NCBI GenBank assembly: GCA_023473795.1
Contig: JAMCYS010000085.1
Coordinates: 1-64,000, forward strand
Reading direction: 5' to 3'
DNA: 64,000 nucleotides
DNA from: Chloroflexota bacterium
GTDB lineage: Bacteria > Chloroflexota > UBA6077 > FW602-bin22 > JAMCYS01
The translations under genes and the position numbers were made by a program. This document shows positions 18,281-24,407 of this stretch, piece after piece. Under the pieces are notes generated by a model. It made no database searches, was not told where the DNA came from, and was given only the letters and a program-made list of their open reading frames with translations. Numbering within the stretch: the stretch's first letter is position 1; the number at the start of each line of letters is the position of its first letter.

Positions 18281-21200
18281 CTACTTCTTCCACCGGGCGG
18301 CCACGCCCGCGGGCGCCTTCTTGCCGGTCGCCTTGCTCGTCGGCTCAGCGGCCGACCTAGCGGACTTAGCCCCGTCCGTCAACTGGCTGGCTTTGGGCGC
18401 GTCTGGTTTGGTGGCCGGCGCAGTGGCGGGCTTCGCCCCCTCCGTATCCTTGTCCGTCTTCGACTTGGCGGCGGGCGCCGCGGGCTTGCCGTCTGGGGCC
18501 CTGGCCGCAGCTTTCTCGTCTCTGATCGGGGCAGACGGCTGCGCGGGCGCTTTGGCGGCTGCCGCCGCCGGCTTGGCCTTGCCCGCGGGCGCCTGCAGCG
18601 CTGCCGCCTGGCCTGGCTTCGCCGCCACTGCGGTCGCGGCTTTGCCGGCAGGCTGGGCAGGCGCCTGCGCGGCGACCGCCACCGCCGCCTCTGCCGCGGG
18701 CTTGGCCCGCTTGGGCGCCGCCACGGCCACCGGAGTCGGCTGCTCCGTGGCCGGCGCCGGACCGGAGGCCGGCTTGGCGAGCGGTTCGGCGGCCTTCGGG
18801 CGCGCGCTGCTGGTCGCTTTGGGAGCCACAGCCACAGGCTCGGGGGCGGGCTCCTTCTTGGGCAGGCTCGCCTTGCTCCGGCCGTCGCCGCCCTTGCCCG
18901 GGCCCTTGGCGTCGCCGATGACGTACAGTACCGCCATCGCCACCACCTTGTCCGTGGGCGCCACCCGCACTAGCCCCACGCCGAGGGTCGAGCGCCCGTT
19001 GCGCGGAATGGCAGTCACGGCGCTGCGATAGACGATGCCCTCGGCGGAAGCCACCATCACCTCGTCGCCCACGTTGGCCACCCGGGCCGCCACCAGGATG
19101 CCGGTCTTATCCGTGATCTTGGCACCGCGCACCCCGCCGCCGCCGCGACCCTGCTGCGGGTACTCCTCGATGGCCGTGCGCTTCACCATCCCCCGCTCGG
19201 TGGCGGTGATGAAGTCCGTGCCCCGGCTGGCGAAGTCCATGCCGGCGGCCTTATCGCCCGCATCCAGCCGGATGGCGCGCACGCCGCCGCTGCCCCGGCC
19301 GGAGGCCCGCACCTCGTTCTCGTTGAAGCGAATCGTCTGCCCCTGTTCGCTGGCCACGATCAGCTCGTCGTTGCCCTTGGTCAGCCGCACCCAGCGCAGC
19401 TCGTCGCCCTCGCCCAGGGCCATGGCGATGAGGCCGCTGGAGCGGATGTTCTCGAAGTCGGTCACGGCGATGCGCTTGACCTCGCCCGCCCGGGTCAGCA
19501 TGCACAGGTACTGGTCCTCCTCGAACCTGCGCACCGGCACCAGGGCCGTCACCGACTCCTGCGGGTCAAGGCTGACGAAGTTGTTCAAAGGCAGGCCGCG
19601 GCTTTGCTTGCCGGCGTCGGGGATATCGTTCACCCGCAGCGAATAGACCTTGCCCCTGTCGGTGAAGAAGAGCATCGTCGCCCGCGTATTGGCGACCGAG
19701 AGGTGGATGACCGCGTCGTCCTCGCGCGTGATAATGGCCCCGGTGCCCGCGCCACGCGCCCGCCGCTGCGGGCGGTAGACCTCCACCGACAGGCGGCGCA
19801 CGTAGCCCCGCGCCGACAGGCCCACGACGACGTCCTGGTTGGGGATGAGGTCTTCTTCGTCGATCTCAGCCGGCTCGTCGGTCAGGATGGCGGTGCGCCG
19901 CGGGTCGCCGTACTTGCGTTTGATCTCCTCCAGCTCGTCTCGGATGACGTACAGGATCTTCAGCGGATGGCCGAGCAGGTCCTCGAGGGAGGCGACGAGG
20001 CGCCGCACCTCGGCCAACTCGTCGAGGATTTTCTTGCGCTCGAGAGCCGCCAGGCGGCGCAGCTGCATGTCGAGGATCGCCTGCGCCTGGATCTCGCTCA
20101 ACTTGAACTTGCTGATCAGAGCCTTACGGGCGGCGTCGGCGTCCTGCGCCCGGCGGATGGTGGCTATGACTTCGTCCAGGTTGTCGAGGGCGATCTTCAA
20201 GCCCTCCAGAACGTGAGCCCGCTGGCGCGCCTTCTCCAGTTCGAAGAGGCTGCGGCGGGTCACCACCTCCTGGCGATGGTCGAGGAAGTGCTGCAGCGCG
20301 GCCTTGAGCGTGAGCGTGCGTGGCTGGTTGTCCACCAGGGCCAGCAAGTTGACCGAGAAGGCCACCTGCATCGTCGTGTGGCGGTAGAGCAAGTGCAACA
20401 CCTGACGGGGAGTCACGTCGCGCTTCAGCTCAATCACCACCCGCAGGCCTTGGCGGTCCGACTCGTCGCGCAGGTCGGATATGCCCTCGATGCGCTTGTC
20501 GCGCACCAGCTCGGCGATCTTCTCCAGCAGCGCGGCCTTGTTGACCTGGAAAGGCAGCTCGGTGACGACGATCTGGTAGCGCCCGCCGCGCATCTCCTCT
20601 ATGTGTGCCTTGGCGCGCAGCACCACCCGACCACGGCCCGTGGTGTAGGCGCTCGTGATCCCCTCTTGGCCCAGGATCAGCCCGGCGGTGGGGAAGTCGG
20701 GCCCTCTGACGATCGCCAACAGCTCGTCCGGGGCGATGTCGATCAGATCGTCGGCCACGGCGACGAGCGCTTCGGGGGAGGCGGCCTTGCGCACGCCCAG
20801 GTGCAGGTCGAGGGCCTTGGCCTGCAGCCGCTGGCGCAGGGCCGGCGCGATCTTGGCCAGGGCCTGTTGCAGGACCTCGCCCTCCACGTTCTGGCCGTGC
20901 ACGCGCGCCCACATCACCTCGAAGGACACGCCCTCCTCCACGGCGGCGCCGTAGCGGTTGATCATGTGCGCCAGAGCGTCGCAGACCTCGCCCAGGTTGT
21001 GGGGCGGGATGTTCGTGGCCATGCCCACGGCGATGCCGGCGGAGCCGTTGATCAGCAGATTGGGGATGCGGGCCGGCAGCACTACCGGTTCTTTGCGGGT
21101 GCTATCGTAGTTGTCGACCCAGTTGACCGTGTCCTTGTCGATGTCGGCCAGCATCTCCTCGGCGATGGCCGTCATGCGGGCTTCGGTGTAGCGCATCGCC

Positions 21201-21547
21201 GCCGGATTGTCGCCGTCGATGGAGCCGAAGTTGCCCTGGCCGTCCACCAACGGGTAGCGCATGTTGAAGTCCTGTGCCAGACGCGCCATGGATGGGTAGA
21301 CGATGGCCTCGCCGTGGGGATGGTAGTTGCCGCTGACGTCGCCGCAGATCTTGGCCGACTTGCGATAGTGAGCCGTGTGGGTCAGGCCGAGGTCGTGCAG
21401 GGTGACGAGGATACGCCGGTGCACCGGCTTCAGGCCGTCGCGCACGTCCGGCAGGGCGCGCGAGACGATGACGCTCATCGCATAGTCGAGGTAGGAGCTC
21501 TGCATCTCCTTCTCGATGGCAACGGGCTTGACGATTCCTATTTCCAT
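18281..21547 (-). CDS. gyrA: DNA gyrase/topoisomerase IV subunit A with long Ala/Lys/Pro tail
   Basis: A 1088-residue type IIA topoisomerase subunit that cuts and religates DNA. The core is clear: [22 protein letters not shown] at the N-terminus, the catalytic tyrosine in [10 protein letters not shown] (near residue 120), then the coiled-coil and beta-pinwheel domain to about residue 870. Two things are odd. The GyrA-box region reads QRRARGAG instead of the canonical QRRGG(K/R)G. The last roughly 210 residues are low-complexity Ala/Lys/Pro, like histone H1 tails. Typical GyrA is 800-880 residues. The weak box leaves room for a ParC-like role; no gyrB/parE is nearby to decide. The ATG at 21547 has GGTGAAG upstream. 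Confidence 0.9.
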
Positions 21548-21782: not shown

Positions 21783-22421
21783 CTACTCGTCGAGCGTGAT
21801 GATCTGCCCTTCGCCGCCCCGCGGTCGGGCGCCGGCTGTCCGCATCAGCTTGCGGAAAGCCTCGCTGGGCTGGGCGCCCACCACGGCATAGCCGCCGGCC
21901 AGGAAGGTGGGCACGGCCGAGACCCCCAGGTCCCGCGCTTCGTCGATCTGTCGCTGCACTGCTTCCCGGTAGGTTCTCTCGGCCAGGACACGGCGCAGCT
22001 CGGCGGCGTCCAACCCGCAACTCGTCGCCGCCCCGGCCAGAACCTCGACGTCGCCGATGTTGAGCCCCTCGGCAAAGTAGGCGTGGAAGATGGCCCGGTG
22101 CAGGCAATCGTGCGCCGCCGGGCCCAGGCCCTTGGCCCACTCGGCCGCCTCCAGGGCGAGCCGGGAGTTGGCGAGGCGCGTCCGGCTGCCCAGGGGCAGC
22201 CCCACCTCCCGCGCCATACGCTCGAATTGCGCCCGCGATTGGCGCAGCAACTCGGGGTCCCAGGGAGGATCCATGCCCTCCGCCGGCACCTCTGGGTGCA
22301 GCTCGTAGGCACGCCAGTCGACTGCCACGTCGAACTCGCGACTGATCAGGTCGGCCCGCTCCAGGGCGACGTAGCAGAAGGGTCAGACGAAGTCAGAGTA
22401 GATGGTCAGGGCTATCGGCAT
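21783..22421 (-). CDS. FrnE/DsbA-family oxidoreductase, probable selenoprotein (Sec13)
   Basis: Thioredoxin-fold DsbA-like protein of the FrnE group, 212 residues if an in-frame TGA at codon 13 (22383-22385) is read as selenocysteine. Translation from the ATG at 22421 gives MPIALTIYSDFV, then TGA, then PFCYVALERADL. The TGA therefore occupies the first position of the CPFC redox motif, making UPFC. The rest is intact: the GMDPPWDPELLRQS segment, the DARDLGVSAVPTF-like cis-Pro region (DLGVSAVPTFLAGG) and the C-terminal helix. A SECIS-like hairpin lies 19 nt after the TGA. A conventional caller would miss the first 31 codons. The alternative is a nonsense-mutated pseudogene, but nothing else in the gene is damaged. 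Confidence 0.8.
22350..22370 (-). promoter_or_regulatory. Candidate bacterial SECIS element (FrnE-like gene)
   Basis: In the mRNA, GUCGCCC pairs with GGGCCGAC (one bulged C) around the 6-nt loop UGGAGC. The loop begins 20 nt after the UGA and has G in its second position, matching the known bSECIS pattern of a small apical loop 16-37 nt downstream with a G in the first two positions. Confidence 0.6.
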
Positions 22422-22490
22422 CTTGCACCATTCCTGGGAAGGTGGTTAGCGGAAACCATTGTACCACCGGTTGGCCAAAGGCGGCTAGGC

Positions 22491-22558
22491 CGTCTTTGGA
22501 GTGCGGCGGCAAGCCGCCGCCCACGAAAGCGCGGGCAAGCCCGCGCACTCCAAAGACG
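22491..22558. repeat. Cloverleaf palindromic element
   Basis: A perfect 15-bp outer stem, CGTCTTTGGAGTGCG (22491-22505) with its complement at 22544-22558, encloses two inner 8-bp hairpins: GCGGCGGC/GCCGCCGC (22503-22520) and GCGCGGGC/GCCCGCGC (22529-22546). It sits in the divergent promoter region of the two selenoprotein genes. It resembles dispersed palindromic repeats of the GGAGTGCGGCGGC type. Confidence 0.85.
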
Positions 22559-22639: not shown

Positions 22640-23476
22640 TTGGCACCAATCGAGTACATCCCAATCATGCGCGCTTACTACCAGAGCCTGGGCCGCGGCG
22701 ACTACCCCCTCTACAAACCCCAAGACGACCCCTGGGCGCCGCTAGTTAGGCCACTCTCGCAGTGCCGGCTGGCGCTCATCGCCTCCTGCGGGATCTCGCG
22801 CCGCGACCAGCGGCCGTTTCACCGCCTGGGTAGCGACGATTTCTCGCTGCGCGAGATCCCAGTGGAGACCCCGGCGGGCGAGCTGGTCGTGAACTACGAC
22901 TACTTCGACCACCGCGACGCCGACGCCGATCCCGATATCCTCTTCCCCCTCTGCCCTCTACACGAGCTGGCGGCGGAGGGGTTCGTCGGCGGGATTTGCC
23001 CAACCGCCTACGCCCTGGGTGTCGGCCGCTGGCGCGGCCCCGCTACGCCCGAGCGCCTGCAGGGCGAGCTGGCGGAGGACCTGTTCGCCCGCTGCCGAGC
23101 CGACGGCGCCGACGCCGCCCTGCTGGTGCCCGGCTGACCGCGCGACCACCAGTCCGTGGGGCTGATCGCCAGAGGGTTGGAGAGGCGCGGCCTGCCCACA
23201 GTGGTCGTGGGCCACATGCTCGACATCATGGAACTCAATCGCCCTCCCCGGGCGGCCTTCCTCGATTTCCCGCTGGGCCATCCTTTCGGCCGGCCCGGCG
23301 ACCGCCCGCGCCAGCTGGCCATACTGCGCGAGGCTCTGCGGCTGCTGGAGACCGGCACAGGGCCCGGCACGCTGGCGCAGCTGCCGTTCGCCTGGGGCGA
23401 GCCCTTTACCTTCACGCCCGGCCAGGGCCCGAAGGTCAACAAATCAGTTAGTGGAGTGCAATCGGATCGTGAGTGA
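22640..23476 (+). CDS. GrdB/PrdB-family reductase subunit, probable selenoprotein (Sec166)
   Basis: A 278-residue member of the glycine/sarcosine/betaine/D-proline reductase selenoprotein B family, if TGA at 23135-23137 is read through. The upstream half has the family pattern NYDYFDHRDADADPDILFPL followed by PLHELAAEGFVGGICP. The TGA follows DAALLVPG, and the frame continues PRDHQSVGLIARGLERRG, then TVVVGHMLD and FLDFPLGHPFGRPGD, all conserved family segments. Sec is known at this position in relatives. A SECIS-like hairpin follows. It starts at a TTG with GGGAGAT upstream. Partner subunits such as GrdE, GrdC or PrdA are absent, so the substrate is unknown. Its stop overlaps the next gene's start. 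Confidence 0.83.
23142..23169 (+). promoter_or_regulatory. Candidate bacterial SECIS element (GrdB-like gene)
   Basis: In the mRNA, GCGA pairs with UCGC and CAGUC with GGCUG (one G-U pair), separated by an internal loop, around the apical loop CGUGG. The loop begins 18 nt after the UGA and has G at its second position, as expected of a bSECIS. Confidence 0.6.
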
Positions 23477-24407
23477 ACAATTGCAGCGCCCCCGGCGACC
23501 CTTCGGCCGCACGGAGCTACTCGTCGACCCCATCTGCATCGGCACGGCCGAGCTCGGCTTCACGCAGAAATCCTACGGCTACACGATCGACGAAGAGCGC
23601 GCTCTGGCCACCGCCCGCGCCATCTTCGCCGGGCCCTTCAACTTCGTGGATACGGCCGCCCTCTACGGCGACGGCGAGAGCGAGCGTCGTCTGGGCGTCG
23701 CCCTGCGCGAGCTCGGCGGCCTGCCGGCAGGCTTCGTGCTCTCCACGAAGGCCGGCCGCAACCCTCAGAAAGACGAGTCCCTCGACGCCGACGGCGTGCG
23801 GCGAGTAGTCGAGCGCAGTCAGCGCCTGCTCGGTTTGGAGAGGCTGCAGATGGTCTTTCTCCACGACCCGCGCTTCTCGACCTTCGAGGCGGTGATGGCC
23901 AAAGGCGGCCCATTCGAGGCGCTGGCTGGGTTGCGGGCCCAGGGCGTGATCCAGCACCTGGGCGTGGCGGAACTCGACGTGCCGCTGCTGCGGCGCTACG
24001 TGGAAACGGGCGAGTTCGAGGCCGTCATCACCCACAACCGCTACAACCTGCTCACCCAGGAGGCCGAGCCGGTCATCGCCGCGGCGCAGGCCCGGGGTAT
24101 GGGGGTGATGAACGCGGCGCCCTATGGCAGCGGCATCCTGGCCAAGGGCCCGGCCGCCTTCCCGCGCTTCCAGTATCACCAGGCAACGCCCGAGATATTG
24201 GAGAAGGCTCGCCGTCTGGAGGCAGTCTGCCAGCGCCACGGCGTGCCCCTGGCGGCGGCGGCGCTGCAGTTCTCTCTCCGCGACCCGCGCATTCACGCCA
24301 CCGACGTAGGCATCTCCCGCCCGGAGCGTATCCAGCAGACGCTGGCACTCTCGGCGTGGCCGATCCCGGAGGCGCTGTGGGCAGAGACAGGCAATCTGAT
24401 TGCCTGA
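23469..24407 (+). CDS. Aldo/keto reductase (D-threo-aldose dehydrogenase-like)
   Basis: A 312-residue NAD(P)-dependent aldo/keto reductase. The tetrad is visible: D and Y in NFVDTAALYGDGE, K in LSTKAG, and H in VFLHDPR. The subgroup resembles D-threo-aldose 1-dehydrogenase/pyridoxal dehydrogenase proteins, which act on small aldoses and similar carbonyls. The GTG at 23469 overlaps the TGA of the selenoprotein gene, so the two are translationally coupled. A GTG at 23451 is an alternative start. Confidence 0.85.
   Translation: MSEQLQRPRRPFGRTELLVDPICIGTAELGFTQKSYGYTIDEERALATARAIFAGPFNFVDTAALYGDGESERRLGVALRELGGLPAGFVLSTKAGRNPQKDESLDADGVRRVVERSQRLLGLERLQMVFLHDPRFSTFEAVMAKGGPFEALAGLRAQGVIQHLGVAELDVPLLRRYVETGEFEAVITHNRYNLLTQEAEPVIAAAQARGMGVMNAAPYGSGILAKGPAAFPRFQYHQATPEILEKARRLEAVCQRHGVPLAAAALQFSLRDPRIHATDVGISRPERIQQTLALSAWPIPEALWAETGNLIA

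Follow-up and report, generated by a model that had tools for sequence, protein, structure and literature searches.

The in-frame TGA at positions 23135-23137 of the 64,000-nucleotide Chloroflexota sequence analysed here (the window) is predicted, almost certainly, to be read as selenocysteine (Sec) in a short PrdB-like redox protein whose Sec motif ends in aspartate. The reading that we favour, with a probability of roughly 0.6, is that this orphan short PrdB-like selenoprotein is a selenolate redox enzyme that would be resolved by an external thiol or by a relocated cysteine. Both the Sec residue and the family are of known kinds, and the variant part is the UxxD form. The relevant features of the gene are as follows:

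22640..23476, forward strand: PrdB-like selenoprotein gene, with a TTG start and 278 amino acids when the TGA is read as Sec
22787..22789, forward strand: TGC codon of Cys50, just after strand 1, where 84 of 88 relatives have Ala or Gly
22895..22897, forward strand: TAC codon of Tyr86, in a column that is His in 85 of 88 relatives
23135-23137, forward strand: TGA codon of Sec166, a column in which all 88 relatives have TGA or Cys and into which the TGA of Terrisporobacter PrdB (UGTC) also falls
23144..23146, forward strand: GAC codon of Asp169 (Sec+3), aligned with Cys in 88 of 88 short-form relatives (UxxC or CxxC)
23148..23166, forward strand: SECIS-type hairpin, with a GUG apical loop at 23156-23158 and an inner 6-bp stem at 23150-23164 (-6.1 kcal/mol)

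Between the TTG at 22640 and the stop codon at 23474-23476 the frame is interrupted once, by the TGA at codon 166. The initial annotation held that this codon encodes Sec and that the family segments on its two sides are intact and in frame, and both claims were borne out. The peptides DAALLVPG and PRDHQSVGLIARG lie before and after the TGA, respectively, codon usage favours a single frame on both sides of it (0.22 nats per codon before and 0.21 after, with negative scores for the other frames), and GC3 is 0.87 in each part. The read-through protein matched the TIGR04483 model of PrdB with an E value of 8.7e-39 across residues 31-251, a match that is continuous over the TGA. The TTG at 22640 is most likely the start of the gene because the peptide downstream of it, EYIPIMRAYYQSLG, is similar to the beginning of proteobacterial relatives (YMRRTRDYYAALG), which the N-terminal YIxxxRxYYxxLG stretch of the window protein matches.

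When 400 genomes of the phylum were searched with a profile, 97 contained relatives, most with one in-frame TGA; motifs were read from the DNA of the best matches, and 88 distinct short-form sequences were compared. This revealed that the column aligned to Sec166 holds Sec (TGA) in approximately 74 sequences and Cys in approximately 14, with no third residue, in agreement with the earlier claim that relatives carry Sec or Cys at exactly this place. A Desulfobacterales genome, the sole close relative locus in a search of genome contigs, carries the same gene with the motif UPKC, while no relatives were found in the viral contigs searched. The nearest kin of the window protein (L069, L062, and L103) are at most 44% identical to it and all read UPxCHQSVGL, placing the window protein on a long branch. 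Gene neighbourhoods varied among the relatives that were looked at; the gene lies directly 3' of rnc (RNase III) in L062 and L069, which come from distant families of the phylum, and in one of these two it also precedes smc.

Translation with table 11 yields exactly two open reading frames at this locus, of 165 and 106 amino acids, as would be expected if the TGA were a real stop that leaves either a truncated pseudogene or two polypeptides, the second starting with GTG at 23156. We consider this reading highly improbable, as about 74 relatives from across the phylum, like the Desulfobacterales genome, have a TGA at this very codon and the remainder have Cys, and as the frame and its codon bias are intact on both sides of the TGA in a genome that has Sec machinery and a covarying SECIS hairpin in this family. 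The pseudogene version in particular is rejected on the codon bias across the TGA together with ordinary column conservation: since the window protein departs from its relatives at just 5 of the 30 columns with conservation of 85% or more, ranking 11th of 89 and thus no outlier, the gene does not appear to be decaying. Reading the TGA as Sec, with the frame after it conserved as one protein, fits these observations.

The source genome, a 4.44 Mb draft of 170 contigs that is 95.9% complete, encodes the Sec insertion machinery, with matches to SelA (544 bits), SelB (363 bits), and tRNA-Sec (71.9 bits), the last with a UCA anticodon (tca in ARAGORN). A search of the draft for SelD gave no match over the cut-off. 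A clear SelD occurs in 22 of 29 genomes of the class, in nearly all cases with its own TGA, and the miss is therefore most simply, and probably, explained by a gap in the draft. The nearest SelD candidate in the genome is a HypE/ThiL/SelD-like AIR-synthase gene that scores below the SelD cut-off and immediately precedes selB on the same strand (contig C107, L129 1267-2271, reverse strand). Several class relatives likewise give sub-threshold AIR-synthase matches, in some cases alongside a true SelD, and the gene may be linked to SelB.

A stem downstream of the TGA had been noted in the initial annotation with a CGUGG loop, which corresponds to the GUG loop plus its closing pair. In the window the stem at 23150-23164 reads CAGUCC-GUG-GGGCUG, and the loop begins 18 nt after the TGA. 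The family hairpin, as seen in 72 distinct Sec-encoding sequences, consists of an 8-bp stem and a triloop at +13 to +31 (U of UGA = 0). Its positions pair in 81% of cells, against 24-46% in controls with the partners displaced by 1-4 bases, which share the coding constraint on the hairpin codons but do not remove it completely. Several pairs swap in a compensatory manner, one of them, for example, occurring as G-C in 39 sequences, C-G in 23, and U-A in 3. The window keeps seven of the eight family pairs and breaks one, with GUG as its loop. Random synonymous codons gave at least seven of eight pairs at the family position in 6.8% of versions and all six inner pairs in 2.9%, such that the window hairpin alone is weakly suggestive; covariation across the family argues strongly for a SECIS-type element. 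A generic scan for hairpins after the TGA was dropped as evidence, as 54% of random synonymous versions of this GC-rich gene do as well, and an Rfam search returned no SECIS match, only weak matches, several of them on an intergenic palindrome.

By homology over its full length, the window protein can be placed in the short PrdB-like branch of the GrdB/PrdB superfamily. The earlier description of a GrdB/PrdB-like protein was therefore sound as to superfamily and too broad beyond it, and is narrowed here to an orphan subfamily of PrdB length. The protein scores 133 bits against TIGR04483, below the 300-bit PrdB equivalog cut-off, and 19.7 bits against PF07355, just below the cut-off of 22. An HMM search of the source genome with PF07355 gave no match, probably owing to this weak similarity and to the splitting of the gene by the TGA. 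GrdB of glycine, sarcosine, or betaine reductase (TIGR01917/01918, NF040794/5) aligns through its C-terminal half with most of the window protein, whereas the GrdB models extend over approximately 435 positions, of which the window protein matches solely those above about 200, and GrdB has a GrdE partner and a UxxCxxC motif. The PrdB of Terrisporobacter petrolearius (WP_228110000.1, UGTC; TIGR04483) is homologous to residues 32-252 with its Sec aligned, but its gene is a near neighbour of prdA, while the window genome has no PrdA and the window protein no Cys at Sec+3. Alphaproteobacterial proteins annotated as "glycine/sarcosine/betaine reductase selenoprotein B family protein" (Roseomonas, Haematobacter) share the short architecture and an N-terminal YMRRTRxxYxxLG, but carry CPxC, in which Cys replaces Sec and the second Cys is kept, where the window protein has UPRD.

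Ocean metagenomes have been known since 2005 to contain orphan short PrdB-like selenoproteins, and the family is widespread, known, and without functional characterisation. In the Sargasso Sea set, PrdB with a UxxC motif ranked third in abundance among known selenoprotein families, with 42 genes (PMC1088965), the GOS set contained 235 Sec members of PrdB (PMC2398784), and UxxC is given as the PrdB motif in reviews (PMC9312934). These short marine "PrdB" proteins (pfam07355), which we equate with the orphan subfamily by family name and motif, carry Sec at the same place in the motif and mostly have Sec over Cys, but are UxxC where the window protein is UxxD.

The initial annotation had also remarked on the lack of partner Grd/Prd subunits, and this was upheld at the level of the genome: the draft contains no candidate for the PrdA/GrdE family (PF09338), while the same search was positive in class relatives with full GrdB. 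The family is also absent from two other short-form carriers of the class (G019 and G027), and a third (G008) has a sub-threshold match only. As this partner family was not found, the window protein is predicted not to be a D-proline reductase. A true B subunit of a D-proline or glycine-type reductase whose PrdA/GrdE partner falls in the missing part of the draft would accord with the homology to PrdB and with an assembly that is 95.9% complete in 170 contigs. The want of any PF09338 candidate, its absence from or sub-threshold score in the other short-form carriers, the score of 133 against a cut-off of 300 bits, and UPRD in place of UGTC make this explanation very unlikely, and we retain the view of an orphan redox enzyme.

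The Sec motif of the window protein is U-P-R-D, such that the second Cys at +3 that would make it UxxC or CxxC is absent. Because the motif given for the family is UxxC (PMC2398784, PMC9312934), the window protein is a variant and not a typical member of the superfamily. The relatives with Cys in the Sec+3 column include two exceptions in form. The first (L106, 2001-2681, forward strand, in genome G301) reads UPIU, with a second in-frame TGA three codons after the first, and may represent a Sec-x-x-Sec motif within the PrdB-like family. The second (L044/L020, in genome G022) has one additional residue in the motif (UPHIC, followed by H), which places Sec and Cys four apart. In full-length GrdB proteins of class relatives the Cys at Sec+3 is sometimes absent too (UGTG, UGSG), such that its loss is known from the superfamily at large, though not among the short-form sequences sampled. 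The window protein also differs at Tyr86 and at Cys50, the latter being a candidate replacement for the resolving thiol.

These substitutions could also mean that the chemistry itself has changed, with Asp169 and Tyr86 acting in acid/base catalysis, no intramolecular selenenyl-sulfide, and either a one-selenol mechanism or a role in binding or transfer. The His86 and Cys169 columns (85 and 88 of 88 relatives) are altered along with the change of Ala/Gly50 to Cys while overall conservation is ordinary, and the Cys-less GrdB proteins of class relatives agree with such a shift. However, all of this is seen in a single sequence whose nearest relative is 44% identical, a setting in which drift along a long branch is indistinguishable from adaptation, and we regard changed chemistry as unlikely relative to a redox enzyme with another resolving thiol.

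An AlphaFold2 model of the protein, built from 55 alignment rows, had a pLDDT of 93.8 and a pTM of 0.92 (protein numbering is model numbering + 1). Sec166 lies in the PrdB/GrdB catalytic domain where the model passes from a strand (159-164) to a helix (167-182), and such junctions are a usual site for a reactive selenolate. Cys50 is located right after the first strand (43-49). A fold search of the model against the PDB and viral models returned nothing at E <0.001, and a likeness to dihydroxyacid dehydratase was rejected as weak, with TM-scores of ~0.33. Searches of solved structures by sequence, single or profile, gave chance matches only. With no close match among solved structures, the structure of the PrdB-like domain is probably new too.

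The Asp at Sec+3 in place of the family Cys and a second, divergently oriented selenoprotein gene beside this one both go beyond the initial annotation. The neighbouring features are:

21783-22421, reverse strand: divergent neighbour encoding a DsbA-like selenoprotein (PF01323, E 2e-33), with the motif IYSDFVUPFCY
22383-22385, reverse strand: TGA of the DsbA-like gene, Sec13 of a 212-residue frame, at the first Cys of CPFC
23469..24407, forward strand: aldo/keto reductase gene, with a GTG start at 23469 and an 8-nt overlap with the stop of the PrdB-like gene

The DsbA-like neighbour is predicted to be a selenoprotein as well, with a UPFC motif. Relatives at E<=1e-20 were present in 14 other class genomes, 12 of which carry a TGA in that gene, and UPxCY was present in all 10 relatives whose motif was read. 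A second TGA-Sec gene so close by also speaks for Sec at codon 166 of the PrdB-like gene. DsbA-like selenoproteins with UxxC are already known (PMC1088965, PMC2398784, PMC9312934). In the table 11 list of open reading frames this gene begins after its TGA (21783-22328). The PrdB-like and aldo/keto reductase genes form a probable operon. A palindromic element (22490-22555; TTTGGAGTGCGGCGG ... CCGCGCACTCCAAA) lies between the two selenoprotein genes, where the weak Rfam matches are spurious, and shows no clear repeat elsewhere within the window. On the far side of the DsbA-like gene, the translation of 18281-21547 (reverse strand) reads as a GyrA-type topoisomerase subunit of 1088 amino acids with a long Ala/Lys/Pro-rich C-terminal tail.

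In the mechanism that we propose, SelB and tRNA-Sec would insert Sec at UGA 166 under the guidance of a hairpin that starts approximately 10 nt after the UGA, a step with strong sequence support. Sec166 would then be the nucleophile that attacks an oxidised or polarised substrate, for which a disulfide, a peroxide, or an activated C-N, C-S, or C-halogen bond are candidates. FarB of Cloacibacillus, which functions in monofluoroacetate dehalorespiration, offers a precedent for a non-amino-acid substrate, as its GrdB-like Sec is proposed to attack a polarised carbon (PMC10838667), but it has a partner, farE, a GrdE homologue whose family is absent from the window genome. In other members of the family the Cys at +3 (UxxC) would release the product via a selenenyl-sulfide. 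Because the window copy has no Cys169, another resolving thiol would be needed, the candidates being Cys50, a small-molecule thiol, and a partner of the thioredoxin type, for instance the DsbA-like neighbour with its UPFC motif. Acting without a pyruvoyl subunit (PrdA/GrdE), the protein would not reduce amino acids in the manner of D-proline or glycine reductase. The overlap with the aldo/keto reductase gene suggests a carbonyl compound, or the reduction of one, in the same pathway. A literature search found no biochemistry and no assigned reaction for orphan short PrdB-like proteins.

More speculatively, and with the odds against it, this lineage may have given up the resolving cysteine and reshaped its active site (Asp169, Tyr86, Cys50), and may use a resolving thiol or a reaction different from that of all other members, with the neighbouring DsbA-like selenoprotein as a possible redox partner in a selenol-to-selenol pair. 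PrdB-like proteins are among the commonest selenoproteins of ocean metagenomes (PMC2398784), and about one in four of the 400 phylum genomes sampled has a relative of the window protein. A natural member that does without the second Cys would offer a direct test of the need for the UxxC selenenyl-sulfide step.
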